NCBI GenBank assembly: GCA_947650285.1
Contig: CANTFL010001372.1
Location: 310,001 to 374,000, forward strand
DNA length: 64,000 bases
From: Hyaloperonospora brassicae
Lineage: Eukaryota > Oomycota > Peronosporomycetes > Peronosporales > Peronosporaceae
Reading direction: 5' to 3'
Position numbers and translations under genes: made by a program. Below are positions 29,191 to 58,126 of this stretch, piece after piece. The notes under the pieces were generated by a model. That model had not been told where the DNA came from and made no database searches. It saw only the letters and a program-made list of their open reading frames with translations. The stretch's first letter is position 1. Each line of letters begins with the position of its first letter.

Positions 29191-29640
29191 TGTTACATGT
29201 CATTCATATATAAATATGCCAAAGTGAATAGTATCTTGTTCGTAGTATTCATCTATAGTACCTGACTTAGGAAATATTGATGGTGCATTATTTCCAAGGG
29301 TAAAATTAGTTGGCCGCTTCACTTATTGGTTGACAAAGACCATTGTATCAACAAATTTACCACCACTCGCTGCTAGAAGCAGGCAATGGGTGGTGAGCGA
29401 GAAACATACACAGCACACATTTGTAGTTTTATACAGTTAAATTAATTAAAGGAGAGTGATCGATGATAACTGTATCAAATACAGTTCTTCTTTCTCTCCA
29501 TACTAAGGGCTTTCTTGATCATGTTCTTCACCTCGCGCTATCGCAACGCTCACGTGTACGTGACGTCCAAGAGCGCTCAACCTTGTATTGAAAAACACAC
29601 CATGTCTTATTACAAATGGGTAAAAGAATGCCCTGTTACA
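29191..29640 (+). repeat. Ty3-C right LTR
   Basis: Begins TGTTACATG and ends CCCTGTTACA. It contains the shared LTR block (29,359-29,400) and a perfect hairpin AACTGTAT-caa-ATACAGTT at 29,468-29,486. It is clearly similar to the left LTR along its length, with many substitutions and small gaps. Confidence 0.7.
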
Positions 29641-32600
29641 ATTGTCGAGGAAGATCCAAAGACTCAGTAGACTGGCAAATTTGTAGTTTGGCGAGCTAGA
29701 ATCCTTTCGTTTCATCATATCCACGTACAAGTCTTGTCTAGTGTTAAAAATGTAAATTCGAATAAAGGATCCTTCTTTTAATCTATCTATTGTCGATGAA
29801 GGGGCTTCAGTAGTGAGCATCGTGATTCCTATTTGGCGTATATTGCGCCGGCGGATTGTTCAAGAGCATACATTACTGTCGGTAACCTGTTGTAATATCA
29901 TAAATGTATAGTAAAGAGAAGCTGCTGATCCCATAAAGGCTGTGGAAGGTATTTGACGCAAGCTGTTCATCATTCGCGAGTCTTAGCGGCTCTCAAAGGA
30001 GCAAAACTTATAGACTTATCGTTCTCTCAAATAAATAGGCTAATTTGTTTACCTGACTTGGCGAATTGGTTGTGCTCGTGCATTCAGGCTTCATCGTTGT
30101 ACATTACACTAGATTTTAGACCTAATATTAAATACAATTATCCAAGATGTTCTGATACGGCCTTTATTCCTCTCACGAGTAATCTCCTCGTCAGGCGTGA
30201 TTTCCAAGCAAATTACCCTCTATCAAAATGTTAGTTTTAGATGATAAAAAGACGTTTTGTCAGGTATCTAATATATTTACAAAATACCGATAGCTCATTC
30301 ATATTTTAATGCGCCGTATTTGTCACTGGCAGGAGACGTGGGAGAATCGTACCACAAAATGCTATTGATTGACATTATTCGATCAATTTTTTCTTTCTTC
30401 CTGTCATATATTCTACTTAGTGGCTGCTTTGTATTTTAATGGATATGATCGCGGTACGTAACAGTTAACGTAATAAATCAGCCGCTAAAGCTAACAAATA
30501 ACTTGATCGGACCCTAAATATATACAATTGCGTCTGCTGATCACGTATGACTGCAATATCAAAATGTCATGTGGCCTTCATGTCCGTCAAAATGTATGTT
30601 ATGGACAGAATTATATCCAGTCTTATCAGCATCGCGTTATGAGCGTGGACGTTTGTAGGTTTTACGTACGTCCGCGGGAAATTATTGGTCATTCTCATAG
30701 TCCATTCAACTCCATTATCTCATCGTACAAATTGGTGGATAATCGACCTTGAATACAAATGACTGCGTTCTGGCAGTTTCTAGGACAAATTCGTCGAGAT
30801 AGTTCGTAATAAATAAATTTATACTTAGTGACACTACATGATACTGTGCCAAGAGAGCACAACTAAGTTTGTATGTTTGTCCAGGTTGTGTGGGTTAAAT
30901 TGTTCGACGAAATGCCGGTCGGTTACCAGCACGTTTCGAAGTTTTTTGTGGGTATGTAATTTTGTCTGGACTGTTAACGTCTATAAATGATGCGACTTGT
31001 GTTTGGGGTCTCATGATATAGTTTTCCTGACATTTAAAAGACTGACCAAGGCGTGCATTTGTGTACATTATTTATCTGTAAAACAAATTAATGCGTTTAA
31101 TCCATGGTTACCACGATGAACTAGGAGACTTCAAACATTATGAATATGATTATCCTGATTTCCTTTCATCTTCAAAAGTTGCTATCCCCGCAAGTAATCT
31201 TTGGAAGTGAGGCTGGGTCCATCCAGATGCAAAACATAAGTGCGAAAGAGATCGACAATTGTGGGATGCACCAGATTCATCGACTATAAGGCACATGGAT
31301 ATTAGCTTACTGTACGAGATAAGAGTGATCAGTTTTGAAGCACCGCTTATGTCTCGCATCCCACGCACCTGCGGTCGTAAAAAGAAATAGTAACACCTGT
31401 AACTGCCGTAAAAGTGTTTTCGTTATTACTGGTATCGGTGCTAATGTTTTGTGCTCATTTGCTCGTTTTTGCGGCCACTAATCGGGATGCTATGTGGTGA
31501 GGGACAGATGAAGAAGCAATACAAGTACAAACGACAAACTTTTTGCGATGCGGAAAAAATACAAGTAAAAACAACAAACGTTTTTTGCTGATGAGTGCGA
31601 CTTGACAATTACTGCAAAGTATGGAACGATGCTCCGGATTCTAAGTTTCGCTTATGCTTATGGTCGCTAATGAACGTAAACATTGACTAAGTACCGGATG
31701 TCATTTACGGTATCGATAAGAGAAGAAGTCTCTGCAACATAAATATCTTACGTGTCGCTATTCATTACCAACATGGCTAGTGCGCTGTTACATATGCACG
31801 CCCTGGCGTCGGTGATTTCTAGACAAATTGTAGACCATTATCAACATTTATAGGAACACTATAACAAGCTCATTTTTATAACCCGTTTAATCAAATGGCG
31901 TAGGACTTGTGGCTCTTACAACTAAATCATATTTATTGCCAAGTGAGTCGAATAATATTTTACATCGAACATGGAAAGATGCGTAGGATATCGTGTTGCT
32001 TACAGCACTTAAGCACTATCATAAATTACGGATCTATGCAAGAAGGCGGATTCGATATCGTATCCAGTGTATGCCCATTTTTCGAGCTAGGAAGCTTTCA
32101 AACTAAAGCTAGGGTAGATATTAGAATACCAAAATTGATATGTAAAGTTGCTTTGACCGCGCAGAAAGTACTTATGATGTTCTTGAAATTGTCGCTACAA
32201 CGGTATGCTTTGTTTTTAGATACTCTTCCTTCTTAATGACCATATTGGAACGTTGAGCTCAAAAAATCTTGCCCGCTTCTATTAAATTAGTATCTCAGAT
32301 GATATATATATGCACTTGCTGTATCTATGTTGGTTAAACCAGTCATATTTCATTGACCCCTCTTTTGTATTACTCTTTGTGGCCTTTGACGCTTATTTTA
32401 CAATAAAAATAATGCAAGTACTTTGGACAGAATGGATCCTGACACGCCAATTAAAAGCACGTTTTTATCGCAAGAACGAAATGCATCTACGCCACACTAA
32501 TATAACATTATTGTAGGTATAATTTCTTGGGCTACATATCACCGAAGTTTGAAAACGTCCGACGCCTCGTCGAGCCACAAGTATATGCAAAAGGTTGCAT

Positions 32601-37308: not shown

Positions 37309-37313
37309 GGTGG

Positions 37314-37625
37314 TGTAATGGGGCAGCCCATTATATTAGGTAGTTATAGCTTTATTACATAATGACATAAGTAGGTACATGCTGTATCCGAATAGCGGAT
37401 ACAGCATCTTATTTTAATGTTGCGCTATTATTGGGGTACCAGACCCAATAACTAGCCGATAGCAAATTGACCTACTTTGAGTGGTTCTCACGAGAAGAGA
37501 ACCCCCTTGTACTTAGTACGGATTTAAAACAAAAATATGAACAGAGTTAATTTTGCTATATAAATGCAACAGCGCTTCCTCAAAGCATTTAGTGTAAGAC
37601 GGTAACGGGACTCTCACCCGTTACA
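37314..37625 (+). repeat. Ty3-B left LTR
   Basis: TGTAATGGGG...CCCGTTACA, 312 bp. It contains a chain of perfect hairpins: TAATGGG-gcag-CCCATTA at the 5' end, TGTATCCG-aatag-CGGATACA, TATTGGG-gtaccaga-CCCAATA, GGTTCTC-acgagaa-GAGAACC, and GTAACGGG-actctca-CCCGTTAC at the 3' end. Confidence 0.9.
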
Positions 37626-37643
37626 CCTGGTAGCACTTGTTGG
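37626..37643 (+). other. Candidate primer-binding site of Ty3-B
   Basis: The sequence directly after the LTR, CCTGGTAGCACTTGTTGG, shares TGGTAGCACTT with the equivalent place in Ty3-A. It would pair with a tRNA 3' end of the form AAGTGCTACCA. The tRNA was not identified. Confidence 0.55.
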
Positions 37644-37666
37644 TCCTTTCCATGACAAAGTTCGAG

Positions 37667-38540
37667 ATGAGCATGGACGAGTCTTCGATCGCTACAGAGG
37701 TTTCGCTGGAGCATGCCGACTTCCCACACCTTAGTATCGTGGAATGGAAGGCAATACACCGCCTTGAGGCGGTGTCTGGTGAGATCTTCGTACATCGCTG
37801 CTGGTCACAGCGACGTCCGAGCAACACCGTGCCTCCATATAAGACTACATGGTGCGCGAGCTCGTCGAAGCGAATCGGCGAGTGCAGACTACCTCGCGCA
37901 CCTACCATCATGACGCGATCAAGATGGAGAAGTCCACGTACTCGAATGATGGACCGGATCGTCTCCCACTAAATCGCTGGTTTCGAGAGATCGATATCGC
38001 GATAGCGTCAAGGTTAATTGACGCTCCTACGCCGAAGGTTAATTTCCTGCTATCACGGCTTGTTGGTTTAGCCAAAGAATAGGCCCTCGGGAAACGTTTC
38101 GTGGACAAGTCGGCGTTCCCCACGCTGAATGAGATCCAGTGTGACTTACGGCTGGCGTTCGAGCCACCTCGAGATGAGTCACGTTTGCGCGCTGACTTCT
38201 TTAAGCTTCAACAAGGCAAGCTGTCGATGCGTAACTACGTGCAGAAGACACGACATCTCGCGTCGTGTATTACCGCGTAACCGATCGACATGGTCTCACA
38301 AGTTCATGTCTTTGTCTTCGGTATGCAGGAGAGCATGACACGTTACTGCCTCACACGGGCTGAACCTAAAACTCTCGAGGAGGCATTTGCGCTTGCGCTC
38401 CGTGAAGATTACACGGTCGCGTCGTCATACCAACACGCAGCATCGCAACGTTACGCACGTCTGACTTCGTGTTAATTGAAATTGATGCGACCGATGTATC
38501 ACGTGGTCGCGGAAATCACTCGGGCCGCGACGTTCGCAGT
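37667..38540 (+). pseudogene. Ty3-B gag
   Basis: The start MSMDESSIATEV and the segment LSIVEWKAIHRLEAV parallel the Ty3-A gag LSDIEWSAIERM. Further on, [15 protein letters not shown] and the capsid region [15 protein letters not shown], then EPKTLEEAFALALRED, keep the Ty3 gag order. At least three frame changes and a TAA near 38,278 break it. No intact zinc knuckle is seen. It would form the retroelement particle. Confidence 0.7.
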
Positions 38541-38554
38541 CGAAACTTAATGAA

Positions 38555-39240
38555 GTGTTTTCGGTGAGTCAAGACAGGACATCGTGCGGCCGTCTGCCGA
38601 GCACTAGCGCCGGTGAAAATAAACACAGCTGTCCCACTTGTAGACACTGTGTCGTCGGTGGTCCCGCCAAAAAACGAGCGGTTCCAGTAGGTGCGAGACG
38701 CCCTACTGACAGAAACGGAGCTCCGGGTACTCAGGTGGCAGCTCGATCTCACAGTCCCAAAGTGACACACACTCACTTCAATGCCACCACCACACGCGAC
38801 GACTCGAGACTGATCATCATCAGTCTCGTCGTCGTTGGAGTGAAGCGACCACTCCGAGCGTTGTTGGATTCGGGTGCATCCAACAACTTCTTTCGGGCAT
38901 CATGTTTGTCCGTTTTGCCGTCCAAGGTTACGGTTTGAGCAGGTCCAGATGACATCGTAGTCAAACTAGCTGATGGACAATTTCAGCTCGTCCCGCGCTA
39001 AACAGTGTTTTTGCCGTATACGTTTGATGGCTTTCAAAGCAACGATAAATTTCTGGTGTACGAGATGAAGTACGCATTCAATCGCATCATGGGGATACCG
39101 TGGCTGTCACGGTATCATCCGACGATAGATTGGCTATCTCGGTCCGTCAAACGACGCAGCGGATATGACGAGAGTGAAGTGTTCACTTATTTGTTGGTTG
39201 CGTCATCCGATTGGCCCCACGTCAGGGTCGTGGAAGAATA
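38555..39240 (+). pseudogene. Ty3-B aspartic protease
   Basis: The active-site motif LLDSGASNNFFRAS (near 38,860) and, further on, the flap-distal motif IMGIPWLSRYHPTIDW (near 39,090) are those of retroelement aspartic proteases, which cut the gag-pol precursor. A TGA at 38,936-38,938 and a frame change separate the two halves. Confidence 0.7.
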
Positions 39241-39321
39241 AGCCACGACTAAAGTCAACACAGAGAGAGCGATGGCCCTCTGCGCCCGGTATGTTCATTC
39301 ACACTGACAGAACCACACCAC

Positions 39322-39520
39322 GAGGCGGTCGAGCAGAGGTTCCTGCACATTCAGACATCGGTCGAGCAGAGGATCCCGATCAATATCGAGGCGGTCGAGC
39401 AGGGGCTACCGCATACTAACACATCGGCTGAGGAGCGGCTCCTGATCAATATCGAGGCGGTCGAGCAGGGGATCCCGCACATATCTGAGGCGGTCGATGG
39501 CGAGCTCCCGCCTCTTATCG
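39322..39520 (+). repeat. 66-bp in-frame tandem repeat in the Ty3-B protease-RT linker
   Basis: GAGGCGGTCGAGCAGNGG starts at 39,322, 39,388 and 39,454 (66-bp spacing) and a fourth, diverged start lies at 39,489. A degenerate half-unit sits in the middle of each. The period is a multiple of three, so in frame it encodes about 22-residue units with EAVEQ. Confidence 0.75.
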
Positions 39521-39740
39521 ACGAGAATGAGCGGACTGTGGGTCCGTATGTAAACGACGTGGTGAGGATAGAGCCCTCACGTCTAGCGGGGGGGGGGGTA
39601 TATCATCCTCCAGCGACAGCGACGTCCCGGTCTCGAGCAGTGGATCGAGACGTAAGAAACGACGTAAACACAAGAAAAGAGCACGCTGATCGCCGGGACG
39701 ACGACATTCTCGTCGACAGGATGACCACGATGATTCCGTA

Positions 39741-41420
39741 GTGACGGAATCCATATGCGCGTTCAAATATGTGGAAGGGTATCGACATCGCGGCCGCTAC
39801 ATTGAGTTAGCGAGCCGTCCGTGTACGGCTGCAGAGATCACATCTCTATCGGGACTACCATGGAAAGATTTTCTCCATGACGTCAAGTCAGGTCACATTG
39901 AGCAGGTGTGCATCGTTTCTACCGCCGAAATAAACACAGAAGAAGATTCGGAGACTCGCCCAAAGAGTGCCGAGCCCAAATCAGCGCGTGAGGAACGTTT
40001 TGCGGCACAGTCGTGGGAAGCCCTTCGTGCGTCGGACAACCCTGTCTACGATATCGCTCGTGAGTTTGCCGATATCTTTTCGGAGAAAATTTCCGCTGAG
40101 CTTCCAGCAGATCGTGGAGTGCGGCACGCGATTGATATTGTGCCTGTATCGAAATAATGCGTAACGCGGCAGTAGCCGTTACTCCATGATTAAGTCATCG
40201 CGATTGATGAATTTTTTGAGGGTCGCCGTAAAGCAGGCCATGTTCGCGAGAGTGTCTCGCCACATTCGGGTCCGACATTCTGTGTGAAGAAAGCCATTGG
40301 CGGATGGAGCATTGTGCCCGCTTTTAACAAGCTGAATGACTCCACGGTTCCGGTTCAAACGCCAATCACACGCAAAGACATGGTATTGGATACCATGTCC
40401 GGCGGTGACATTTTCAGTACCATCGATCTGACAGACGGGTTTATCAGATCTAAATGAGAGACAGTGATATTCCATTCACTGCTGTCAGCACCTCAAGCGG
40501 GATGGTATGGAAGTGACTAGCTATGCAAGAAGGGCTCAAGAACGCTCCAGCTACGTTCAACCGGATGGTGACACAATAACTTCGCCCACTACACGGTTTA
40601 GCATTAGGCTACTTCGACGACATTTTTGTACATAGCGCGCGAAGCATCAGCTCAGCGTTACGGAAGTTCACCTTCGACACTTGAAACAGGATTTTCGAGT
40701 AATGCGTGAGAATAAATTTTGTACGCAGATTTGAAGAAGTGTGCCTTCATTGCGCTCGAGATTCCAGTACTCGGCTGCTATGTCAGCAAGGAAGGTGTCC
40801 GTGCTGATCCATAGAAGGCATCTTCGATATGCTCTTGGCCTACGCCCAATAACCAAACGGAACTAAGACAATGTCTCGTCCTGTATAATTACTTACACAA
40901 GTATACGAAGAATTATGCCAATTTATCAGCCATTGTCGGCTTTGCTGAAGAAAGACACCGTCTGGTCATGGAAGGCAGATCATCGATCTGCCTTCAGCTC
41001 CGTGAAACGGAGCTTTTCTGAGGCACCAGTGCTAATGTTTTCATGATGCCTACAAGCCATATCACGTTGTCTGCGTTTTTGCAACTTTGCGATCAGTTGT
41101 GCTCTCATGCAATGCGACGATGAGGGCCGAGAGCTTATCGTGATCTTTCCGTCACGACAGATGAAACCTGCTGAAAGAAACTATCCGGTACACGATAAAG
41201 AACTTTTGGCTCTGCGTAATGCGCTGATCAAGTTCACAGTATATTTACTCGGCGAGAAAACGTTCTCAATGTATACAAATCATGCATTACTTTGTACCGC
41301 CGTCAAGACTCCTCACTCATCCCAGCGTATGGATCGTTGGTTGTCATTGTTCTAAGAGTATAACTTTGTCGTGTTCTACAAGCCCGGCAGTAATTACATC
41401 CTTGCTGACGCTCTCTCTCG
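39741..41420 (+). pseudogene. Ty3-B reverse transcriptase and RNase H
   Basis: The linker ends with RGVRHAIDIVPVSK near 40,150. RT pieces follow: CVKKAIGGWSIV-like sequence near 40,290, FSTIDLTDGF near 40,420, a GLKNAPATFNRMV segment near 40,540 and the catalytic GYFDDIFVHSAR near 40,610. The RNase H and tether region ends with SRQMKPAERNYPVHDKELLAL (near 41,155) and FYKPGSNYILADALSRRPDY (near 41,385). Several stops and shifts are present. Confidence 0.75.
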
Positions 41421-42480
41421 GCGTCCCGATTACGATCCTCGACGCGACATGGGCCATCAGCCAGGTAGTGCTGATGACGACGACGATGACATTTGTTTGT
41501 GCTGTACTGAGCTAAATCTCAATGCAATGATATCGGCACCTGTGCTGTTCATTCGGAATCAGATCGCTGAGTCGTTCTGCGATGATTCCTTCTACACAAG
41601 GATTATTAACTATCTTCGACACCCTAGTGAGGGGTCACTCGCGAAGCTGACGAAGCCGACGCGCGACAACATCAAGCGTTATGCGCTTGATAGCCCGCTG
41701 TTGACATACACGATGGGTGTCTTTGATTCACCGCAAGTCGTCATGCCTGCCGATGACGACCTTCGAGCACGATTGGTCCATGAGTTTCACGACACTGCAG
41801 CTGGTGGTCATCTGGGTCGCGAATGTCTTTTCGTGGCCATTTCGCTAGTGTTTTTCTGGCCACGGATATACAAGTATATTCAGAAGTGGGTATGCTCTTG
41901 CTAAATCTGCCAGCGTGTAGGCCTGCACCATCTTCTCAAGCCCCACTACGACCATTTCCAATTGCTACGAAAGCCTGACGTTCGGTCAGCATGGACTTCA
42001 TCTTTGTTCTTTCATCGGATGAGAAGGACCGCACAGGCGTCTTAGTTCTCGCGGAATAATTCCCCAAAATGGTGCATTTTGCTCCGGTCCCCGCGCACAT
42101 TGCGGCGGAGACAACCGCGAAGATCTTTATTGATCTTATCTTCAGGCATCATGGCTTGCCTGAATCCATCGTTTTAGACCGTGACCCGCGCTTCACTTAG
42201 GCTTTTTGGGCACAATTGTTTCAATTACTGGGCACGCATCTGCTCATGTCTACGGCAGCCCATCCAGAAACGAATGGGCAAACGGAGCGCGTCAATCGAG
42301 TGCTTGAAGATGTTCTGCGCAATTATGCGAGAACATTTACTTCATGAAGTTCATTTTTCCCGCTTTCCGAGTTTGCAATCAACAATGCAGTACATGCGTC
42401 AACAGGGTTGACGCCATTCTTCGTGAACAACGCGAGGCACGCTCGCGTTCTAGCGCTTCTATATCTCTCAACTCCTAAAC
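41371..42480 (+). pseudogene. Ty3-B integrase
   Basis: The frame 41,371-41,904 includes the zinc-binding region (VHEFHDTAAGGHLGRECLF, then ending at CSC before a TAA where the CxxC should be completed). The catalytic core follows in broken frames, with a VSMDFIF-like start near 41,990, a LDRDPRFT-like run near 42,175 and NGQTERVNRVLEDVL near 42,275. It would insert the cDNA. It is inactive here because of stops. Confidence 0.75.
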
Positions 42481-42807
42481 ATCATGTTTCTCAGCTGGGT
42501 GGGGGGTATCTACGGATGGTATTGCGCAGAATCACTTGATGATCGATTACGTTAAGAAAAAGGTTGCTGCCGATGCCACTTCTGCTGATACTTTCGTGAC
42601 CAACGGCATATCAAGTCCCGACGCGATGCATACCATCACGGTCCCGTCGCTAATTTTGCTCTTTAAGAGTCTTCTTTGCCTGTAAGTTCGGCTGCATTCA
42701 CCGCACTTTTTATTACTACGGCAAGGCATCACGCGTTTTGTACGTGATGCCCTTCAAGAGGACATCGACAAATAAAGGAGAACGCAGACAAGCGAGGTCG
42801 AAAGAAC

Positions 42808-43863
42808 ATGTTGACACTCAACAAAGGGGACGGAGTCTTGTTATCGACAAGTGGTCTGCTAGACACATCAGTGACGAATTTGGGCGCTAACAAATTAGCG
42901 CCAAGGTATATTAGACCCTTTCAGGTTGTTAATGTACATGAAGACACCTACACGCTAGACATACCTACCACTATGCGTCTGCACCCGACATTCTATGTCG
43001 GGCGCCTCGAAACGGACCTCCCGGCGGACCTCCCTTCGAGTCTTCTCCGCTCTTCTGTGCCGGCTCAAAGTTCGACATTCCTTGAAGACGACGCTGACGA
43101 CGCCTTGGACCAAGTCCTACCCGAGTGCGTGCAGACTCGTTCTGCTGGGGCCCTCCAGAAGTTGCAGTCTCAAGTTGGCGAAGACGCGCAACCAACCCCT
43201 GTTGCTCCCGTCGAGTCCTTTTGGCAGCTTTTGTTGCAGCAGCCGCACGATCTTGAGCACTCTCGGCCATCTCACGAGCATCCAGCAGGTCATCCTTCTT
43301 TTCTTTAGTCTCAGCACGAAGAAACCGCAACTCGTCGTTCGGCGGTAAAGGCGTCATGTTACCTGAACCAGCGTCCACCGCAAGAGGTCTTCCGTCGTGA
43401 CGCTCCTCCTACGTTGGTGGATGCATCGGGTGCGCGACACTGGATTTTGGATCGTGTTGTCGATCACGAAGGCCCCACACGCCATGCACCGAGTAGTGAC
43501 TCGGTGCCATCGAAGAGCCGCGAGAAACATTACAAGGTCCTCTGTCTGGGTTATTCAGCATCGGACGACACATGGGAGCCTCGAAGTACATTGGCTCTCG
43601 ATGTTCCTGACGTTGTCGAGGAGTACGAAAGCAGTAAGAGGCCGGTGATCAAGACCGACGATGTCGGCTACACCCACAATCTCGCGAGCCGTGACACTCG
43701 CGAGCTGGGGACCGACTACGATCCTTCGAGCGACTCCGAGATCTATTACGAGGCTCGAGAGCACTTGGATATGATGACGGGTGACAACGACTGTGTGAAC
43801 GACCACGACGGTCGTACATCAATCGGTCTCGACTGTGTGAGCGAACACGACAGTCGTACATGA
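42808..43863 (+). pseudogene. Ty3-B integrase C-terminus and chromodomain
   Basis: The part 42,808-43,308 holds the C-terminal module (NKLAPRYIRPFQVVN, MRLHPTFYVGRLE). After a frame change, 43,414-43,863 holds a chromodomain (WILDRVVDHEG, HYKVLCLGYSASDDTWEPRS), which in chromoviruses guides insertion to modified chromatin. The tail repeats DC-VN/SEHD-RT. The antisense frame of the element overlaps all of this on the minus strand. Confidence 0.75.
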
Positions 43864-44467
43864 ATCGGAGCGTCTCCGTTGGTCGACAGGGCGCTCTCCC
43901 ATGTGACGCAGCGTCAATACTTGGAGCTCTGAGAGACTTCTCTTATAGCGGCCTATCCATGGTTGGATGTGCTGGGGCATTCCCCGTGAACACACTGAGT
44001 CGTCCCATTCCTGATGATTCCACGAAACACGATGAGCCTCCTTCATGAACATGGACGTAGCACATGCGAAACTTGTCACGAGTCAGACGACACACACGCC
44101 GGTGTAAATCGCCAATAGCGTGTGCACCATGATTGTCTTCGCGTCGTTCGATTCAGGACGTGAAGAATCTTCCTTCACGTCGACTCGAGTTCCAGCGTCT
44201 GATGAAGGCACACCAAGATCGTTGCAGTGCGTCGTCAGTGTATGCAAGATTCGTCGCTTTGCCTCGCACGGTACGGTACCGTCTGAAGAGGTCCTTTATC
44301 GACTCAAGCGGTTCAGGCTCGTCAGCGTCTTCGAGGCTGTACAAGGCCAATGGTTTCAAGTCTTCATCCATGACTTGCGGTGGTCGCTCTCTTCGTACCG
44401 TCGCCTGATACACTCTATCGTTGTTCGTGACATCGGCGCGTGAGTATCCAGGATTGATGCTGCTCAT
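42971..44467 (-). pseudogene. Ty3-B antisense reading frame
   Basis: From ATG 44,467, 141 bp inside the right LTR, one minus-strand frame runs about 499 codons to 42,971. The open pieces 44,467-44,153, 43,861-43,649, 43,591-43,409 and 43,378-42,971 are all in the same phase, broken by only about five stops (including TGA 44,155-44,153, TAA 43,945-43,943 and stops ending at 43,649 and 43,409). The first piece carries LQRSWCAFIRRWNSSRREGRF, which resembles LLAAWNAFVQNVKNFGREGW in the Ty3-A antisense frame. The middle is Arg/Ser-rich and the last piece is a coiled coil (LRFLRAETKEKKDDLLDAR). Function is unknown. Confidence 0.6.
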
Positions 44468-44607
44468 TTGTTTGTAACTGAGCAGAGTCGAAGACCGATA
44501 CTACAAGCCGTTAAATTTCTCGTGGTGTTCGTGCGACCATTTGTTAAGAAGCAACATTCTGCGTATGGCGCTTACGTTGAGGTAAGCGCAACTTAACGAT
44601 AGAGTGA

Positions 44608-44919
44608 TGCAATGGGGCAACCCATTATATTAGGTAGTTATAGCTTTATTACACAATGACATGAGTAGGTACATACTGTATCCGAATAGCGGATACAGCA
44701 CCTTATTTTACTGTTGCGCTATTATTGGGGTACCAGACCTAATAATTAGCCAATAGCAAATTGACCTACTTTGAGTGATTCTCACGAGAAGAGAACCCCC
44801 TCGTACTTAGTACATATTTATAGCAAAATATGAACAGAGTTAATTTTGCTATATAAAAACAACAGCGCTTCCTCAAAGCATTTAGTGTAAGACGGTAACT
44901 GGGCTCTTACCCCGTTACA
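44608..44919 (+). repeat. Ty3-B right LTR
   Basis: 312 bp, starts TGCAATGGGG (one change from the left copy) and ends CCCGTTACA. It is followed by the second GGTGG target copy. Most hairpins of the left LTR are kept; TATTGGG...CCTAATA now has a mismatch. Confidence 0.9.
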
Positions 44920-49437: not shown

Positions 49438-50368
49438 ATGCGTCTGCTCTGTAACATTGCGGTGTGCCTTTTCGTTCTCCTGCTATGCGCAAGTGGTGCG
49501 TCAACAGCCACGAGAGGCATACAGAAGTACGCTGCAGCTCGGAACGCGTCCGATGGTTTGCTTCGTCTGGAGACAAACGTGGCTGACGAGCCGAATCGCT
49601 TGCAGCCGCAAGACTCAGTGGCCGACAAGGCCAACGACGAACATCGGGAACAAGAGGAGAGAGTGGGGATGACGGTTGAACCCTGGACGTCCAGCGCAGG
49701 ACATTTCTTGGAATCGAACGAGCTGCTACTGCGGCAGAAAATGCACTTAAACAGAGCGCTCGCGCCTTCCACGCATGACGAAGAGATAGAAACGGTGTTC
49801 GCTCGTGTGAATTTGCAGCAGTGGCTTTCCAAGTCCCACAAGCCCGACCACGTCGAAGCGTTTCCGGTTGCTTCCGGTTCCGTCTTGATTACAAATGGAC
49901 GAGGAGGAGGAGTGGCGAAAGTTTTCCTCTGGCTTCGAGGATTCACTCACCAAAAAGACTTTGCGGAGATGTGGCAACGTATTTTACTCGCTCACTACCC
50001 TGAGACTTTGCCACTGGTGTCTGAGGTGTGGCTGAAGTCAGGCTTGAGCCCCACAGAAGCTTACCGCATGATGCCCGTCTCAGCCAAGAAGACGTATGGT
50101 TGGCTCGATGTCCACCGCACGACCAATGATTGGATTGATTATGTTGACAAGTATCGATCTCTGGGTCACGACTACAGCGACAGCCAAGTGGCTCGAGTGT
50201 TGGCGAACGATAGGCACGCAAACACGTTGGAAGAAATTTTTAACTGGCTCAGGATAACTCCGTCTAAGAAGGACGGCGCAGACCGGATGCAAAAAGGTTA
50301 GAGTTGCTACCAGTGCTCTACCGATGGATCAAGTCGGGAGTGAGTCCCGATAAGGCGTACGTGCAGTC
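49438..50368 (+). pseudogene. RxLR-EER/WY-type secreted effector pseudogene, 5' part
   Basis: From ATG 49,438 the protein begins with a signal peptide (about residues 1-24, hydrophobic core VCLFVLLLCASG). It then has GLLR at residues 40-43, a G-for-R form of the RxLR translocation site known from downy mildews, and EER at 73-75. WY-type helical units follow (WLKSGLSPTEAYRMM; IFNWLRI). Such proteins are delivered into plant cells; the host target is unknown. The frame stops at 50,299-50,301 after a run of five A (50,291-50,295), and the next WY half resumes in another phase to 50,368, where Ty3-A is inserted. The right part is at 58,127-59,860. The frame upstream to 49,171 is open, but the signal peptide fixes the start. 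Confidence 0.8.
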
Positions 50369-50806
50369 TGTAACGGGGCACTGTTAAATACGTACTGGTT
50401 GACCAGTACGGAGTATACTTCCACTGACGACAGTGGTCGACAGTGCCCTGCTAGGTGTTTAAGGAACACAGAGGAAGGAAGGGAGAATAAGTAGTCAGAC
50501 CAGTCTCTGGTAAAAGTAAAACTGTATTAATATAATTAAGTCCTATAACTCCTTGAATCTCTGTTATCCTGACTTAATTATACTAATATAACTATATGTA
50601 TGATGACGTCTACTCACCACCCATTGCGCGCGTCTAGCAGCGATTGGTTGGTTAATATCATCACGATATTAACCAATGAGTAGACCCTTCGGTCATCCCA
50701 ACAATATCACCATGTCTGTGACATTGTTAAAAGAATATTCGACGTAATATTCTTTTTTGTCAAATTGTTTTAATGACAATTTCATGTAACGGGCTACCCC
50801 GTTACA
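50369..50806 (-). repeat. Ty3-A 3' LTR (left in the window)
   Basis: Ends TGTAACGGGG and CCCCGTTACA. It is almost entirely hairpins: outer arms 50,376-50,384 / 50,440-50,448 enclose CGTACTGGT-tg-ACCAGTACG (50,391-50,410) and CCACTG-acga-CAGTGG (50,421-50,436). Then come 12-bp arms at 50,531-50,542 / 50,571-50,582, 12-bp arms in 50,648-50,676, an imperfect hairpin at 50,700-50,728, 11-bp arms at 50,729-50,756, 7-bp arms at 50,762-50,782 and 9-bp arms at 50,785-50,806. Confidence 0.95.
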
Positions 50807-50819
50807 TTACCCCTACCTT
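50807..50819 (-). other. Polypurine tract of Ty3-A
   Basis: On the minus strand AAGGTAGGGGTAA directly precedes the 3' LTR, the usual place and composition of the plus-strand primer. Confidence 0.65.
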
Positions 50820-50937
50820 ATCTGATAGTCACCGTATGACCATCGAAACTTGGTGGACACCCGTTGAACACCAGTGAGACAGGGAGCACTTGTTTGGTCA
50901 GACTCATTCACTCCTGACCTTGCCTCGCATAGTTAAC

Positions 50938-52542
50938 ATGTCTATGCGAGGTGATTCGAAGACCACACAGCCTGCTGCTGTGCCAGCCTCTGCGGTAGAC
51001 GCTTCGTCGTCTGCTGCTTGTCCTCCGTCTGCAGCAGAAGGTGCTGCAGACGCACGCGGTATCGCACCACGTGCACATGATGACCTTGACAATGAGGTCA
51101 TCAAGTCTAGCGAGTCAGACGTGTCTGACTCGCGCAACGTTCCAAAGACATCCCGATCACTAGCGGTGTCTCATCGTTTGTCAAGTGCACTGTCGAACGA
51201 GCGCACTCGTGAAATTCAACACAGTCTGTTCGGCAGTGATGATGAACTCTATGGTGAGGAATACTATGCCTCACCAGTATCAACTCGTTCTTTTCCGCAC
51301 GAGCGTGATGACGATGGCGAGAGCCGTCGTCGTTCTGAAAGCCGTGGTACCGAAACAGGTACCACATTGAAGCGTGGTGAGCTCAAGCCGTGGCGCTTGC
51401 CCGAGCAGCTCATCAATAGCTTGTCTCACGAGACAAGCCAACACCATCGAATTCCTTTATTCGATGCAACTGAGCTTCATGGCTTAAGTTCCAGCGCGAG
51501 TAACTTCCGCGCTGAAGAAGACTTCTATCTCGATGCCTTCCTTAGGCATCGATGGTATAATGGAAACCAAAAGCGTTACAAAAACTCACTTTTGGCAGCG
51601 TGGAACGCCTTCGTCCAAAATGTCAAGAATTTTGGACGAGAAGGGTGGCTTAAGAAACTTGAGGCGGTACGCCTCAAGTTTGAAAAGCGAACGCCAACCG
51701 TTGCTAGGTACCGGTTGCATCGTTTGTCAAGCGAGGCAGACATTCCTTGCCTCATTTGGGGAGATCCTTGTGTGAGTTGTGTTGACAACTCTCAGCGTGC
51801 ACATAGGAACGTGATTTCCCTAAGTTAGCCCTGGGGAAGGGCACACATCTCGGCTGAGATGCGTGACGCGATTGCAAACTTGCAATCCGTCTACAAACGC
51901 CAAAAGCGTGTGTTTACCGATGGGCCCTCGGACCAATCGGATGAGTCTCGTCATGTTGGTGAACGAGACCGGGCACATCCATCATCAGCTGGGAGCCCCG
52001 CTTCCAGCTGTTCCAAGAGGGTGGATACCCCCGCCACTGGACGAGGTAGCTCGTCCTTGATCCTGAATCGTCACGGTGGTTCAAGATACGCTCCACTAGA
52101 AAGCGTTGACCCTCGTGTGAGTCCACCAACGGATGTGGCGGAGGAGAAAAGACATCCTCCAGATCGTTCTGCTCACCATCTCGATACTCACGAGATGGAT
52201 CGCACAATCGTTGAATTGCGCGATGATTTAGAGCACGAGAGGGACAGGCGTTACGCTCTGACTGACTCTTTGCGGAAGTACCGCAAAGAGCACGAGACGA
52301 ACCGTGCGAAGGACCGCGCTGAGTATGCGGTCGCACAGCTGCGGGTCGAGCGCGACGTCCGCTCCTTCCTTGGCGAGCTGGCGACATCTCGCGGAGAGAT
52401 CTCTTAATTGCGTTGTGAGGTCTCTTATTTACGCGACCAGACGTACCGTCTGGAGCGAGAACGCAATAACTTGATCGATGTTCTTGAACGTGGGGGCTAT
52501 CTTCATCGGAAGAAGAAGGCTCGTACTGAAAGTACGGCCTGA
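50938..52542 (+). CDS. Ty3-A antisense reading frame, 534 codons with two in-frame stops
   Basis: This frame runs against the pol genes. It starts at ATG 50,938, 132 bp inside the 3' LTR, and ends at TGA 52,540-52,542. Only TAG (51,826-51,828) and TAA (52,405-52,407) interrupt it. Residues 1-100 are rich in Ala, Ser and acidic residues. The middle has a Trp-rich block (LLAAWNAFVQNVKNFGREGW) that is recognisable in the Ty3-B antisense frame. The last third is a strong coiled coil (TIVELRDDLEHERDRRYALT, RDQTYRLERERNN) with a basic end. From 50,938 to 51,913 there is no sense frame, so its openness is not a shadow of pol; from 51,914 it overlaps the chromodomain frame. By layout it recalls antisense genes of retroviruses such as HBZ, but no homology is claimed. 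It may be translated only in intact copies. Confidence 0.6.
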
Positions 52543-52891
52543 GTCGCCCCAAGTAAAACGTAGAATGTGTGCGCATCTTACGTCGCAATTTTATCAAGTA
52601 TGCATTGTCCTTGCGGTGCAACACACGATAGAGACCAATGTATATCGGCAGTAGTTTACTACTGCCGACATTAGTGACTACATGTCCAGGTAAGTTCACC
52701 GTAGACAGTAGTACTAGGTCGTTAACCTTAAATGAAAGAACATTTGATCTTCCATTCTTGTCTGCGTTCCGTTTCTGGCGGTCCACCGCATTTGCGATGG
52801 AGTCCTGAACGAAACGGACTACCGCCTTTCGAGTCAGCAGGAAGTTCTCTGATGACTCGTTGTTTTGTCTTTCAGTGCGCTTCGTGCGCAC
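51914..52891 (-). CDS. Ty3-A integrase C-terminus and chromodomain
   Basis: An intact 325-codon frame. The N-terminal half has the post-core integrase module (NDLVLLSTVNLPGHVV, RKMRTHSTFYLGRLRPYF). The C-terminal half has a chromodomain (LVERILNHRDDSGS, YLVQWRGYPPSWNSW) that in Tf1/sushi-type chromoviruses directs insertion by reading histone marks. It is separated from the main integrase frame (ending at 52,960) by a frame change. Positions 51,914-52,542 also encode the antisense frame on the other strand. Confidence 0.85.
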   Translation of the reverse strand: MRTKRTERQNNESSENFLLTRKAVVRFVQDSIANAVDRQKRNADKNGRSNVLSFKVNDLVLLSTVNLPGHVVTNVGSSKLLPIYIGLYRVLHRKDNAYLIKLRRKMRTHSTFYLGRLRPYFQYEPSSSDEDSPHVQEHRSSYCVLAPDGTSGRVNKRPHNAIKRSLREMSPARQGRSGRRARPAAVRPHTQRGPSHGSSRALCGTSAKSQSERNACPSRALNHRAIQRLCDPSREYRDGEQNDLEDVFSPPPHPLVDSHEGQRFLVERILNHRDDSGSRTSYLVQWRGYPPSWNSWKRGSQLMMDVPGLVHQHDETHPIGPRAHR

Positions 52892-52959
52892 TGCTAAGAT
52901 ATCGTTCTCTTCTTCAACGAGGGTGTATTCTTCCTCGCTGGAATAATCATTGACGATGC

Positions 52960-54234
52960 TTAATATCCCAGCATCGTCATCGTTGTCTGATGTAGCAGCA
53001 GCGTCATCGCTACTGCTAAGCTCAATTTCCTCGATGTCGACAACGTCGACATCGGCATCAAACGTATCGGCGTGAGCGGTGATACGTGATGAGCAAGAGC
53101 CAAAACGGTTTTTGCTCGAGCGAGTCTCTCCCTTCTTAACTCAGAGTCACTCTGTATGAGGACGGGAATACGAGGGTGGCGTAAGCCATTCACGTAGAAT
53201 GGTGTATGCGTTGTGGACGCATTCACGGAGTTGTTGATGGCAAACTCAACCATCGGCAAGAACTCACTCCAATGTGAAAAGGAGTGGACGTATCCACGAA
53301 GAATTTCTTCGAGGACACAGTTCGCCCGTTCAGTCCGACCATCCGTTTCGGGATGATCAGAGGTTGACATCTTCAACCGTGTTCCCAATGTGCGGAACAC
53401 GGATTGCCAAAACGCCGCCGTGAACCGAGGGTCACGGTCGGATACGAGTTCACGGGGTAAACCGTGGAGTCGAAACACAGTGTCGATAAATACACGCGCA
53501 CATCCGTGAGCGTCGATCGATTCTAGGACTGCAGCAAGATGTACCATCTTGCTGAAACGATCCACAAACAAAAGAATACCATTATTCTTGTTAGTGTCTT
53601 CGGGAATTTCGAAGACAAAGTCCATCGACACGGACTCCCAACACTCTGCCGGGACCGGCAGAGGTTGTAACGGTGCACGGGATGAATGGCTAGGCTTCAC
53701 CCGTTGACAGACCTCGCAATAACGAATGTACTTGTGGACAAACGGATACTGGCGGGGCCAGTAAAAGGCACGATTGACCGTGAGGTAAGTCTTTTCTCGG
53801 CCACGATGTCCGCCAGACGGTGCATCGTGACATTCGAACATAATTCGTAATCGCAATTCATCATGATCGGGAACGACGACACGAGGCGTGTCGTCGGCAA
53901 ATGATGTATTGTACAGCAGGCCATTGCGAGTCGTGTACCGATCCAAAGAGGAACGGTACAGAGCCGGCAAATCCGACAAGGATTCCCGGGATGGGTTCGC
54001 AAGATGACACATCAAACGGAGGAGATTTGTGTCTCCTGCGTATGCTTTCCGCACGTCGTCGAGTAAAGGTGACGACGGCACACTGATGGACAGTGTCGCA
54101 ACAGTGGGCAAAGCCTCACTGTTGACTCGGGACGTTGGCTCGAAGTCGGGCCGACGTGACAACGCATCAGCGACGACATCAAGTCGTCCTGATATATACT
54201 CCACGGAGAAGTTATACTCCGCGAAGAAGGACAA
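52960..54234 (-). CDS. Ty3-A RNase H end and integrase
   Basis: A 424-codon intact frame. It begins in the RNase H end (SVEYISGRLDVVADALSRRP). The integrase zinc domain follows as ECHDAPSGGH and CEVC. The catalytic core has the D,D,E residues in VSMDFVFEIP, VSDRDPRFTAAFW and TDGRTERANCVLEE. The last 40 residues (from LALAHHVSPLTP) do not fit the family, so a frame change near 53,080 probably replaces the true continuation. The protein would join the element cDNA to the genome. Confidence 0.88.
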   Translation of the reverse strand: MSFFAEYNFSVEYISGRLDVVADALSRRPDFEPTSRVNSEALPTVATLSISVPSSPLLDDVRKAYAGDTNLLRLMCHLANPSRESLSDLPALYRSSLDRYTTRNGLLYNTSFADDTPRVVVPDHDELRLRIMFECHDAPSGGHRGREKTYLTVNRAFYWPRQYPFVHKYIRYCEVCQRVKPSHSSRAPLQPLPVPAECWESVSMDFVFEIPEDTNKNNGILLFVDRFSKMVHLAAVLESIDAHGCARVFIDTVFRLHGLPRELVSDRDPRFTAAFWQSVFRTLGTRLKMSTSDHPETDGRTERANCVLEEILRGYVHSFSHWSEFLPMVEFAINNSVNASTTHTPFYVNGLRHPRIPVLIQSDSELRRERLARAKTVLALAHHVSPLTPIRLMPMSTLSTSRKLSLAVAMTLLLHQTTMTMLGY

Positions 54235-55651
54235 TCACCTCGCCATTCGTTGCGAGAGGTGTGGACTGTTTACGGCCGTGCGTAGTGACGTATGGTCCGT
54301 ATAGACGATGAACGGTCTATCTCCCAAGAGATAGACCTGGAACTTAGCTAGTGCTTATTTCATAGCAAGGAGTTCCTTGTCATGCACTAGGTAATTGCGT
54401 TCATCTGGTTGCATCTGACGCGATTGATAGCAGACGACGCGCTCTGCGCCGTCTGTGTCATACTGCATCCCTGCACAGCCGATAGCAAAATCGCTGGCGT
54501 CACAGACCACACGAAAAGGTCAATCCTGATCTGCAATCGCCAATATCGGCGATTGCATCAAGCTTTGCTTGATACCCTCAAAAGAACGCTTGCACTCAGC
54601 GTTCCATGACCACTTGACATTTTCTTGAGCAAGCAAGAAAGATGAACAGTCATCTCGGAGTAGTTGCGCGAGTACTTGTGCAAGTACGCCGCTAGCCCAA
54701 GGAACTTCCTTAGTCTCTTGACATCGACTGGCACTGGCCAGTCGGTGATCGACTTGATCTTTTCGGGATCAGGGCGTACGCCCTGTTTGCCGACGATGCA
54801 CCCAAGAAGTGATATTTCGTTTGCCGCAAATATACACTTCTCGAGGTTGGCATACAACTTATACCTGCGCATAAGTTGAAGAACCTGACGAACGTGAGTT
54901 CGGTGGACTTCAACGTCCGTCCTTCCGTCCATGGCCCGGCTATAGACGAACACATCATCGAAATAACTCGGTGCGAAATCCCGCACCGGTCTCAACAGAT
55001 TTGTAGCGCATCTGTTAAATGTTGCAGGGGCATTACTCAGCCCCTGTGGCATCACTAGCTACTCCCACAGCATACCGCTGGGGTGCGCACTTCTGTGTGC
55101 GGAACATCCCGTTTACGCATAAGGATCTGATAGAATCCGTCCATCAGATCCATGGACGAAAAGATGGTACTCTTTGACATACCATCTATGATTACGTCCT
55201 TTCTTGGTATCGGCGTCTGAGCCGGTACCGTTTCAGCATTCAATTTGTTGAATGCGTGCACTATCCGCCATCCTCCTGTGGCCTTTCGCAAACAGAAGGT
55301 CGGAGAGCTGTGAGGGGATGTCGATTCCCTCACATGGCCCGCTGTTAAGCGATCGGCAAAGAACTTGTCGATTGCTAACACTTGTTCACGAGGCAGTGGC
55401 CACTGCTTCATGACACAATCTTTCGAGCCCGGATTGAGCTCGATCTCGTGTCGAGTGCCTTTGTACTTAGGCAACTCGCATGGCACGGATTCAGGGAGCA
55501 CATCCTTGAATTCGATCAAATCCTTATACAATGGATTTGCCTGAAGCGACTTCCAGGATTGAGATTCATATCTCTCAATCCGATTCTTCTCATCGATTAC
55601 AGTTTCGTCCATCGATGAACTACTGGGAACCCTCTCGGTCTCAGTAAACAC
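54180..55651 (-). pseudogene. Ty3-A reverse transcriptase and RNase H
   Basis: Frame 55,651-55,055 carries the RT fingers (KQWPLPREQVLAIDKFFADR, TFCLRKATGGWRIVHAFN, FSSMDLMDGFYQI). Frame 55,055-54,558 carries MMPQGLSNAPATFNRC and the catalytic SYFDDVFVYSR, then FLGLAAYLHKYSRNY. Between them, near 55,060, a frame change and a TAG break the LWEWLVMPQG region. RNase H continues to 54,180 with further breaks (ERVVCYQSRQMQPDERNYLV). This copy cannot make active RT. Confidence 0.85.
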
Positions 55652-55660
55652 CGTTGCCGA

Positions 55661-56345
55661 TCAAATATCGGTAACGTACTCGTCCTCCGCGACGAGTACA
55701 CAGATCTGCTTGACTTTGCCACTGCGCAGATCACGCAAGAATCGTTTCGGTTCTAGCGTCGTAAATTGAGATATCTCCGAAGTTAGTTTCGGAGGCACAA
55801 CCAGATCAAGCGTGTAAGCGCCTACGCTTGATCCACCATTAACCAGGACATTCAGTGTCTGGATTACCTCCTGTGAAATCACTTTCACAGGATCTGGGAG
55901 AGTTATCTACACAATGTAGTTATCATCTACATTGTGTTCTTGTACAGTCGTGCTAACGACCGTACCACAAGTGAGGCCATCGCACTCGCTCGTAGTACAC
56001 CCACGTGAGTGTGGGCGTTCCAAGATATTCGTCAGGGGGTTATCTGAGGAACAAGTAGCAGGTATCGTAACCGATTGATACTGCCAACTCACCCTTGGCT
56101 CGTATCTCCTGAGCCAAGGCAACCCTAAGATGACGTCGAACTTGTCATCTAGGTCAAGCACGATGAAATCATCATCGTACTGTTCGCCTTTAACGTGTAG
56201 TGGATTCCGACTACACGTTTCTTCACAGTGATCGATTCGCCTGTCGCTAGGCGCACCGTCATCTTCGTTGGAGGGATCTCCGCTCCAAGAAGTTAAAACT
56301 TCCTGCCTCTAGAGTCTGGCGACGAACAAAATTGTTCGACGCCCC
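55661..56345 (-). pseudogene. Ty3-A aspartic protease and linker
   Basis: On the minus strand LVDCGASNNFVR near 56,330 is the active-site motif (D-C/S-G-A). MLDLDDKFDVILGLPWLRRY near 56,130 is the conserved distal part. The linker with TTLEPKRFLRDLRSGK (55,740) follows in another frame. Stops and frame changes separate the pieces. Confidence 0.75.
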
Positions 56346-56539
56346 ACAGTCAACTAGGGCGCGAAGTGACAAGTCTTTTGTCACTTCTAACTTCGAGGTG
56401 ATGAGAGACACCTCATCACCAGGTGCATATACACACAGAAATTGTGTGTCGGGAGCAACATTTTTCAGGAGATTTGCAAATTCTCTCGATGTTGCTGGAT
56501 CAGTAGGGCGCTCCGCCCCTACTGATCCCGACCGTTTTT

Positions 56540-57638
56540 TTATGGTCCACTTTGCTGTTGCGACTTTGCAACAGCAACGGACCCTCGCCCTCCAGTTCTT
56601 CTTGCTGGTGGGTGAATACTGCGCTCAGCACCGCGAGGTCCTGAGCGGGGGACACTGCATTCGTATGCATAATGTCCCAGTTTGTGACAGCGATGGCATC
56701 TCACCATTCGCTTGTCGTTCATAGGGCGAGGTTTCTCGCCCTCGACTTGACAGAGGTCCATTGGTTCTGGACCTCCGACAGCTGATTGTCTTTTTGGACG
56801 ATAGGGGTCAACGTAGCGTGAGACTGCCTCACACTATAATCTCCTTGCTCCGCTGCGAAGATTGCCTCTGAGAGCGTCTTTAGCTCTCCGCGGAACAGGT
56901 GGTCCCTAACGGGACCGTCTGAAAGCCCTTGAATGAAAATCTTGATCAACACAAACTCACTCACAGGGTTCACTACCATGCAGCTTGCAAGGTAGCGTAC
57001 GTGCTGAGCGTAAGCGTGAACCTTACGCTTACCCTGTTTGATTCCGAGGAGTTCAGATAGTGTTCTGAACTCTGCTCTGGGCGGCTTGAACGTCTCACTG
57101 AGCAGGTTCTTGAAGACTTCTAACGACCCAAACACATTTGGGTCGTGCAACTTGAGGTTCAGGCCCAAGCTCTGGCTTCTCCTGCCAGGTTAGACTGAGC
57201 GAATAAGACTTGCATTCGCTCATCGTCGATGCGACGAGCATCGATGGCATCGTCCAGCTCGACGAACCACCTCAACAGGGAGTCTTCATCGACTCCCCGA
57301 CACTTGGAGACCTCTAATTTTAGAGACTCCCGTCGACGCTCACGCGTCGGCTCTGCGGACTGAGACTGTCGTTGTCTCAGTGCTTCGGTCCGCTGGTGAT
57401 CTTGTTGTTGTAACAAGGTCACCTGCGCGCGCGACTCATCAAGTTCTCGTTGCAAGAACTTGATAATGACGGCATGTTGCCGGTCTATATGCCTTGAGGA
57501 TAGCATGGCCCATATGGCTTCCTCGCCAACGGTCGAACTCATTCGTTCGATCGCACTCCATTCGATGTCACTCAAATAGGAGTAGCTCTCACGGGTTCCG
57601 TGATAGCTGTCGCCGTCTACATCGTCCAACATGTTCAT
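56540..57638 (-). pseudogene. Ty3-A gag with zinc knuckle
   Basis: Three frames in order: 57,638-57,159 (MNMLDDVDGDS..., LSDIEWSAIERM, coiled region QRELDESRAQVTLLQQQ), 57,168-56,719 (capsid core with HAYAQHVRYLASC and LIKIFIQGLSDGPVRDH), and 56,761-56,540 (nucleocapsid with CHRCHKLGHYAYEC, a CX2CX4HX4C knuckle). The two junctions are single frame changes, near 57,165 and 56,740. Gag builds the particle and binds the element RNA. The start is 51 bp after the 5' LTR. Confidence 0.85.
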
Positions 57639-57670
57639 GTTGGGCGATGGGGTTGTGGTCCTTGGACGGA

Positions 57671-57688
57671 CTACAAAGTGCTACCAGG
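57671..57688 (-). other. Candidate primer-binding site of Ty3-A
   Basis: On the minus strand the sequence directly after the 5' LTR is CCTGGTAGCACTTTGTAG, sharing TGGTAGCACTT with Ty3-B and, with changes, Ty3-C. The matching tRNA was not identified. Confidence 0.6.
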
Positions 57689-58126
57689 TGTAACGGGGCA
57701 CTGTTAAATACGTACTGGTTGACCAGTACGGAGTATACTTCCACTGACGACAGTGGTCGACAGTGCCCTGCTAGGTGTTTAAGGAACACAGAGGAAGGAA
57801 AGGAGAATAAGTAGTCAGACTAGTCTCTGGTAAAAGTAAAACTGTATTAATATAATTAAGTCCTATAACTCCTTGAATCTCTGTTATCCTGACTTAATTA
57901 TACTAATATAACTATATGTATGATGACGTCTACTCACCACCCATTGCGCGCGTCTAGCAGCAATTGGTGGGTTGATATCATCACGATATTAACCAATGAG
58001 TAGACCCTTCGGTCATCCCAACAATATCACCATGTCTGTGACATTGTTAAAAGAATATTCGACGTAATATTCTTTTTTGTCAAATTGTTTTAATAACAAT
58101 TTCATGTAACGGGCTACCCCGTTACA
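57689..58126 (-). repeat. Ty3-A 5' LTR (right in the window)
   Basis: 438 bp, same ends as the other copy, about six substitutions. Two of these weaken the 12-bp hairpin of the other LTR (GGTTAATATC has become GGTTGATATC). Confidence 0.95.

Follow-up and report, generated by a model that had tools for sequence, protein, structure and literature searches.

Short perfect hairpins tile a clade of Ty3/gypsy chromodomain retrotransposons in Hyaloperonospora brassicae

In a stretch of 64,000 nucleotides (nt) from the oomycete Hyaloperonospora brassicae (contig CANTFL010001372.1; hereafter the window, in whose positions all window coordinates are given), a long terminal repeat (LTR) retrotransposon of 7758 base pairs (bp), element A at 50369..58126, holds 61 short perfect hairpins, whereas 30 dinucleotide-shuffled versions of the same sequence average 1.6 and never exceed 6. 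Related elements elsewhere in the genome are similarly enriched, and it is almost certain that such structures tile the full length of the elements in one clade of Ty3/gypsy chromodomain retrotransposons. The tiling covers LTRs, gag, pol and an antisense frame, and each family has a typical stem length. Unless stated otherwise, a hairpin is a perfect, non-overlapping inverted repeat with arms of at least 8 and a loop of at most 12 nt.

The excess rises with arm length, with 26 hairpins having arms of at least 10 in element A against 0.07 after shuffling. A scan of the whole window placed 61 hairpins inside the element and 44 across the remaining 56 kb, where a second cluster at 37-46 kb belongs mostly to another element. 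The flanks are almost empty, with no hairpin in 47017-50390 and a single one (58361) from the end of the element to 64000. The first 20 kb are near chance, although not exactly at it (7 against 3.85, or 7 against 2.4 with loops of at most 10). Shuffling synonymous codons in the pol frames of related copies likewise removes the excess, both for arms of at least 9 (29 against 0.35 in family A and 16 against 0.6 in family C') and for arms of 6 in family D (49 against 9.9). The excess over shuffled controls that the initial annotation of this DNA had anticipated is thus borne out, and an artefact of chance or composition, in favour of which we found nothing, is refuted by the two kinds of shuffle and has practically no probability left.

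That annotation had listed eleven hairpins in 51,027-51,681, where about 0.1 would be expected at random. All eleven are perfect at their coordinates, and shuffles give about 0.13 per 655 bp. The arm and loop sizes mostly hold, with two stems slightly longer than listed (51026-51052 has arms of 11 and a loop of 5, and 51419-51438 has arms of 9 and a loop of 2). Within the reverse transcriptase (RT), the pair TGCAATCGCC/GGCGATTGCA was found at 54532/54548 and the palindrome CAGGGCGTACGCCCTG at 54770, and the stretch 54532-55046, said to hold at least nine hairpins, has 10 stems with arms of at least 7 and loops of at most 12. Two further assertions needed adjustment. A host gene and an effector described as free of hairpins are near chance but not at zero: the frame of a PLD-like domain protein (13036-14637, plus strand, PF13091), perhaps the gene that had been called PGS1, has 1 against 0.3, and the effector frame 1 against 0.2. 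The tiling had also been tied to element A, where it is real, but it extends more widely, since the element at 37310-44919 has 25 hairpins against 1.4 and that at 21805-29644 has 7 against 1.35.

Pfam domain matches identify element A as a Ty3/gypsy LTR retrotransposon with a C-terminal chromodomain and place gag-pol on the minus strand, in the order gag, protease (PR), RT and integrase (IN); RNase H was matched only in the pol frames of C' and D. Because gag-pol lies on the minus strand, the plus-strand frame at 50878-52404 is an antisense frame. The LTRs are direct, have TG...CA ends and are 98% alike over 300 nt. The RT is split over two frames, so the window copy is broken. The features of element A and of its two relatives in the window are as follows.

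50364..50368 (left) and 58127-58131 (right), no strand: target-site duplication CAGTC, read from the sequence
50369..58126, no strand: whole element A, with 61 perfect hairpins with arms of at least 8, or 89 with arms of at least 7, loops of at most 12
50369..50806, minus: 3' LTR in pol sense (TGTAACGGGG...CCCCGTTACA), containing hairpins of arm/loop 12/5 (50648), 11/6 (50729) and others
50878..52404, plus: antisense frame in two open pieces (316 and 192 codons), adjoining the 3' LTR
51026..51681, no strand: eleven perfect hairpins, arms 7-12, loops 2-9
51917..53140, minus: C-terminal part of pol, with Tf2-1-like SH3 and chromodomain PF00385 (E 7e-10)
52963..54234, minus: integrase, with H2C2 zinc-binding domain and rve core
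54561..55058, minus: reverse transcriptase, C-terminal piece
54770..54785, no strand: perfect palindrome CAGGGCGTACGCCCTG within the reverse transcriptase
55058..55660, minus: reverse transcriptase, N-terminal piece in a different frame, RVT_1 under the cut-off
55910..56308, minus: aspartic protease (RVP_2)
56722..57189, minus: gag (Retrotrans_gag)
57674..57686, minus: likely primer-binding site TGGTAGCACTTTG, directly inside the 5' LTR
57689..58126, minus: 5' LTR in pol sense
37310..44919, plus: second hairpin-tiled Ty3 element, family C, with LTRs at 37310-37625 and 44604-44919 that are 92% alike
21805..29644, plus: old relative of element A, family B, 67% identical in nucleotides, with LTRs 83% alike

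The role of TGGTAGCACTTTG as primer-binding site is likely from its position and TGG start, and its first 10 bases are present once each in copies of families A (L062), C' (L059) and D (L060). Self-priming was considered and dropped, as the reverse complement of these 10 bases occurs in none of the four elements searched. Rfam gave no match above gathering scores, and no Pfam family matched the antisense frame at 50878..52404 above the cut-off. Counts of terminator-like sites (7 against 6.6) and promoter-like sites (13 against 7.5) in element A are uninformative for a eukaryote.

Searched with two parts of element A, the 100.6-Mb genome gave at least 40 scored places per part. All 30 family A loci examined, including the window copy, are rich in hairpins (26-61 per locus of about 5 kb, against 0.4-2.0 shuffled), and two better preserved, less decayed copies, L061 and L062, hold 109 each against 1.2-1.3. 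Enrichment at their own arm length is also found in all 18 clade stretches outside those 30 loci (L045, L047-L049, L051-L053, L056, L057, L059-L064 and the three window elements). By comparison, each of the 19 other RT loci sampled has at most one hairpin. These loci, some of them near-identical copies, are LINE-like or Ty3-like with an RT 25-28% identical to those of L047 and L053, class labels that are based on their RT motifs.

Families A, C' and D share about 70-74% identity in their RT segments, and the PF00385 chromodomain was found in all three. The window element of family C is related to L045 (81-85% in nucleotides) and to L059, and the family B element at 21805-29644 carries a weak remnant of the hairpin excess. 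Many copies of C' and D are 99-100% identical. Such near-identical copies, together with open pol frames and LTRs that are 99-100% alike (L059, L060, L063 and L064), indicate that these two families were recently active. Relatives of pol occur in Peronospora, Phytophthora and Globisporangium among the best 120 of 4420 matches; for the family D RT, relatives reach 96% in Peronospora matthiolae and 92% (82% covered) in P. farinosa. A scan of viral contigs with the D pol returned no relative. The 1000 bases preceding the LTR of L061 contain no hairpin. L063 is an exception, with six hairpins in bins 500-1500, ahead of its LTR at 1523, where a neighbouring element of the clade may lie.

Stem size differs from family to family. 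In A (L061 and L062), arms of 8-10 bp are the most frequent and none is longer than 14. In C' (L059 and L063, with an open pol of 1795 codons and LTRs about 99% alike), the peak is at 8 bp and loops are mostly 3-6. In D (L060 and L064, with an open pol of 1606 codons and identical LTRs), arms are 5-6 with a triloop, and arms of at least 8 are few (5 against 1.5). For example, L060 has 135 arms of 5 against 45 and 67 arms of 6 against 13, and, with both LTRs included, 63 loops of 3 nt against 4.3. Family D had been taken for a hairpin-free control on its long-arm count only, a use given up when the arm histogram showed the excess at 5-6 bp. In the D LTR (L060, pol-sense 1641-1740 in the 5' LTR, repeated in the 3' LTR), a tandem unit of about 50 nt contains three hairpins of 5 bp and 3 nt with different stems.

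Hairpin density in family A is even across coding and non-coding parts. Regular spacing was rejected, as the coefficient of variation of the gaps is 0.77-1.02. Hairpin span varies less than in permuted arm-loop pairs in C' and A, not in D, although this ruler is partly to be expected, since the span is unchanged when a chance pair forms inside. Base composition at stem positions is also particular to the family: a C on the 5' side closes the loop in 93 of 194 D stems, 39 of 68 C' stems start with G, and A shows little preference. C' has an excess of GNRA tetraloops (5 of 24 against 0.7 expected, p 7e-4; 3 of 24 antisense), whereas A, with 1 of 34, and D, with 1 of 57, show no such enrichment.

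Counting pairing classes at fixed stem size (all Watson-Crick, one G.U, one A.C, other) shows that stems of the young families are almost strictly Watson-Crick, without a bias towards G.U. In D, stems of 5 pairs with a loop of 3 number 88 in the all-Watson-Crick class against 7.7 expected, while those with one G.U (6 against 11.2) or one A.C (8 against 9.5) do not exceed expectation. In C', with 8 pairs and loops of 3-6, the corresponding counts are 59 against 0.8, 6 against 1.4 and 11 against 1.2, so that a small excess of one-mismatch stems persists. Among the older copies of family A, one-mismatch stems of 9 pairs are abundant in L061 and the classes are alike (G.U 35, A.C 33, other 29), as neutral decay would give. 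That G.U does not stand in for a Watson-Crick pair is harder to square with ordinary selection on a single RNA strand than with arm copying, or with selection that acts on pairing in DNA or on both strands of RNA. An asymmetry between G.U and A.C had been tried as a strand test in A, where none was clear, and the fixed-size count was used instead.

Between families, which are about 65% identical in nucleotides, hairpin centres are scarcely shared, although a few common hairpins are possible. In the pol alignment, exact coincidences are no more numerous than shifted controls can give: 0 against 0.2 for A and C', 3 against 0.8 for A and D (control maximum 5), and 3 against 0.4 for C' and D (control maximum 4). 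Hairpin codons are less conserved in all six family comparisons (for example, 0.456 against 0.539), and the drop comes through codon positions 1 and 2, not 3, which suggests that hairpins cost amino-acid changes or occupy tolerant sites. Within A (30 loci, 51000-54400), hairpins lie at the same places, and 23 of 467 stem pairs have an alternative Watson-Crick pair in some copies. Between the close copies L060/L051, L060/L049, L061/L062 and L059/L063, 48 stem pairs are broken and none is compensated. Because only broken stems are seen between close copies, copies seem to decay in the chromosome; renewal would then belong to element replication. Constancy of position among copies, on which the case in the initial annotation had hung, therefore holds only in part: decayed copies lose hairpins, mostly without compensation, and sister families have none at the corresponding places but others elsewhere.

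Covariation is weak once controlled, and modest within A. Four chosen pairs of A copies have 10 of 13, 9 of 12, 5 of 10 and 10 of 13 double-changed pairs again Watson-Crick (p 0.026, 0.041, 0.61 and 0.014; controls 0.43-0.49). Between A and B, control pairs leave 42 of 83 for L062 (0.51 against 0.42, p 0.07) and 42 of 81 for L061 (p 0.06). L059 gives 5 of 6 with L045 (p 0.037) and 2 of 7 and 5 of 10 with the window element of family C; L062 against L059 gives 11 of 27, which is not significant. A much stronger A-B signal (42 of 83 against 0.25, p=5e-7) was withdrawn, because double transitions restore Watson-Crick pairs and the control pairs bring p to 0.07.

Copies of A also differ by exact inversions of a loop between unchanged inner arms. 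These were found at 5 of 53 hairpin loci, with no loop merely reversed or merely complemented, where simulations with redrawn substitutions give a mean of 2.2 (P=0.003). A 6-base loop, flanked by perfect arms, is inverted in L061 relative to L062, copies that are about 98% identical. A sixth case, in L015, is included in a stricter count based on the majority loop.

We lean, tentatively, towards arm-copying template switching by the reverse transcriptase of the element, over selection for a folded genome, which is nearly as likely. Under such a mechanism, it is the replicating lineage that would produce the hairpins and maintain their perfect pairing, and not the chromosome of the host. During synthesis of complementary DNA (cDNA), the nascent strand would fold back or pair with the complementary strand, and the enzyme would copy a short tract from the opposite arm and then go back to its template. 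Each switch would leave a pair of arms that are exact complements, in some cases around an inverted loop, and how long a tract is copied would depend on the enzyme of each family. After integration, copies would drift and their hairpins decay. We favour this reading because young families have few G.U stems, loops are inverted between copies, close copies show only broken stems and, among the loci sampled, one RT clade is involved; the decay-like mismatch classes of A, the scarcely coinciding centres and the lower conservation of hairpin codons point the same way. Of the three causes offered in the initial annotation, template switching is thus the best supported, although creation events, repair and arm asymmetry were not seen. 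Neither arm is consistently closer to the outgroup, so no bias between template arm and copy arm appears, and the difference between arms is not larger than at random sites. The four close copy pairs show no stem repair. No one-step, multi-base creation of a hairpin is seen among the minority hairpins of the 30 A copies, which are mostly one-base extensions of stems found elsewhere (at most 7 variants per place examined). The excess of loop inversions is small (5 against 2.2), and such inversions also arise at perfect repeats of ordinary cellular DNA and could postdate integration. The stricter count gives 3 loci, or 3 of 56 variants against a crude expectation of 4.2; we prefer the simulation because 4.2 includes loops whose inversion the observed changes cannot reach. 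A narrow, family-specific arm length is not an obvious product of copying, and the base preferences (D closing on C, C' starting on G) and the GNRA loops of C' resemble selection or a seeding bias. All of these points count against template switching.

Selection for a hairpin-tiled genome, in which density and stem size matter and position does not, is quite possible, if short of probable. The useful hairpins would be in genomic RNA, in cDNA while it is single-stranded, or in sense and antisense RNA alike, and might serve particle packing, prevent annealing to antisense RNA or resist silencing by small RNAs. Such selection would account for the narrow arm lengths of each family, the even density over coding and non-coding parts of A, the base preferences at stem positions, the GNRA loops of C' and, insofar as chance inner pairs do not explain it, the reduced variation of span in C' and A. 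Folding of 701-nt pieces as pol-sense RNA, with 20 shuffles each, gives z-scores of -10.8 for the window copy of A, -11.8 for L062 and -4.3 for D (L064), with A structures that are largely strings of local hairpins, and Watson-Crick pairs are restored within A in 10 of 13, 9 of 12, 5 of 10 and 10 of 13 double changes, against 0.43-0.49 in controls. The earlier proposal of a highly folded RNA is therefore upheld as to the folding (z=-10.8), but selection for it sits poorly with centres that scarcely coincide between families and with the failure of G.U to replace Watson-Crick pairs. RNA stems under selection usually tolerate G.U, whereas here stems with one G.U are at chance in D and not commoner than those with one A.C in C'; among family A variants shared by at least 3 copies, a preference for G.U on the pol-sense strand is not clear (30 against 21). 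The combination of fixed positions and compensation through G.U that marks a selected RNA was not found, as positions are scarcely shared and covariation between A and B has p=0.07 with the proper control. It is also conceivable, but rather unlikely, that both causes act, with template switching providing perfect stems and selection retaining those of useful size. Such joint action would make the narrow sizes and base preferences compatible with the strict Watson-Crick pairing and the loop inversions. Very improbable is a host chromosomal process of replication or repair, for which the loop inversions known from chromosomal inverted repeats (PMC8604942) and the six hairpins outside the L063 LTR could be cited. 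It is largely refuted by the nearly hairpin-free DNA adjoining the LTR in the window and in L061; moreover, counts in the other elements of this genome are close to chance, and integrated copies lose hairpins instead of gaining them.

A more specific idea, which we regard as doubtful, is a genome-wide hairpin code, in which each family has its own stem specification throughout its coding and non-coding sequence, each hairpin is a functional unit and the family's reverse transcriptase does the writing. Such a unit might, for instance, contact the particle protein, or hold both strands in self-pairing against antisense RNA and small-RNA silencing.

Ordered RNA structure on the scale of a genome, with an excess of local folding throughout, is a feature of RNA viruses, and small inversions in hairpin loops between perfect arms are a feature of chloroplast DNA. 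The present case differs from the former in its separate, perfect Watson-Crick hairpins of family-specific stem length in a retroelement integrated as DNA, and from the latter in that the chloroplast inversions result from isolated hairpins, whereas here the tiling is genome-wide. Template switching in cellular genomes has been reported both to create hairpins and to homogenise them, and to invert their spacers (PMC8794818, PMC8604942). In yeast it yields spacer inversion with homogenised arms (PMC8604942), and in ribosomal RNA genes a loop inversion can be explained by it (PMC8794818). Those mutations share perfect arms and loop inversion with our elements, but they are scattered events in genes, whereas here an entire element is saturated with one stem size class and no creation event is seen. 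The string 'reverse transcript' occurs zero times in the main texts of these two papers.

Chromodomain Ty3/gypsy elements (chromoviruses, and the oomycete Chronos group as presented in the main text of PMC5348765) likewise have LTRs, a primer site of transfer RNA type, gag, PR, RT, RNase H, IN and a chromodomain, and Chronos belongs to the same host group as the hairpin-tiled clade. That main text names oomycete Ty3 groups, uses the word hairpin zero times and gives Chronos a dual RNase H. The hairpin-tiled clade differs from Chronos and the chromoviruses in the antisense frame at its 3' end. A second RNase H family was not matched in the C' and D pol frames (L059 and L064), where only RT_RNaseH and RT_RNaseH_2 appear at E <=0.1; the archaeal-type domain was looked for through the Pfam families that we take to mark the second RNase H of Chronos.

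If template switching is the cause, these elements are a natural experiment in which the hairpin-copying bias of a polymerase rewrote an entire coding genome, and the mechanism would be measurable through families with stems of 5, 8 and 10 bp. If selection is the cause, they represent a folded-genome strategy for retroelements that has no description in the titles and abstracts of the literature searched for hairpins in such elements, a coverage mostly outside subscription journals. Under either cause, perfect stems occur on a large scale in a genome that does not fit ordinary selection on a single RNA strand, which matters to anyone who takes perfect stems and paired changes to prove function. 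Copies are numerous enough to provide ample material.

Antisense frames stand at the same place in all six full copies, with 465 amino acids in L059 and L063, 472 in L060 and L064, 493 in L061 and 351 in L062. Their coordinates in three of these copies are as follows.

L059, 7537-8931, minus: antisense frame
L064, 6809-8224, minus: antisense frame
L061, 467-1945, plus as stored: antisense frame

The frames of C' and D have no significant similarity and are not alignable, and those of A and C' are weakly similar (E 0.02). Just outside element A, 16 bases past its 5' LTR, begins a frame with WY domains of RXLR effectors (58142-59473, plus strand, PF18634, E 4e-21).

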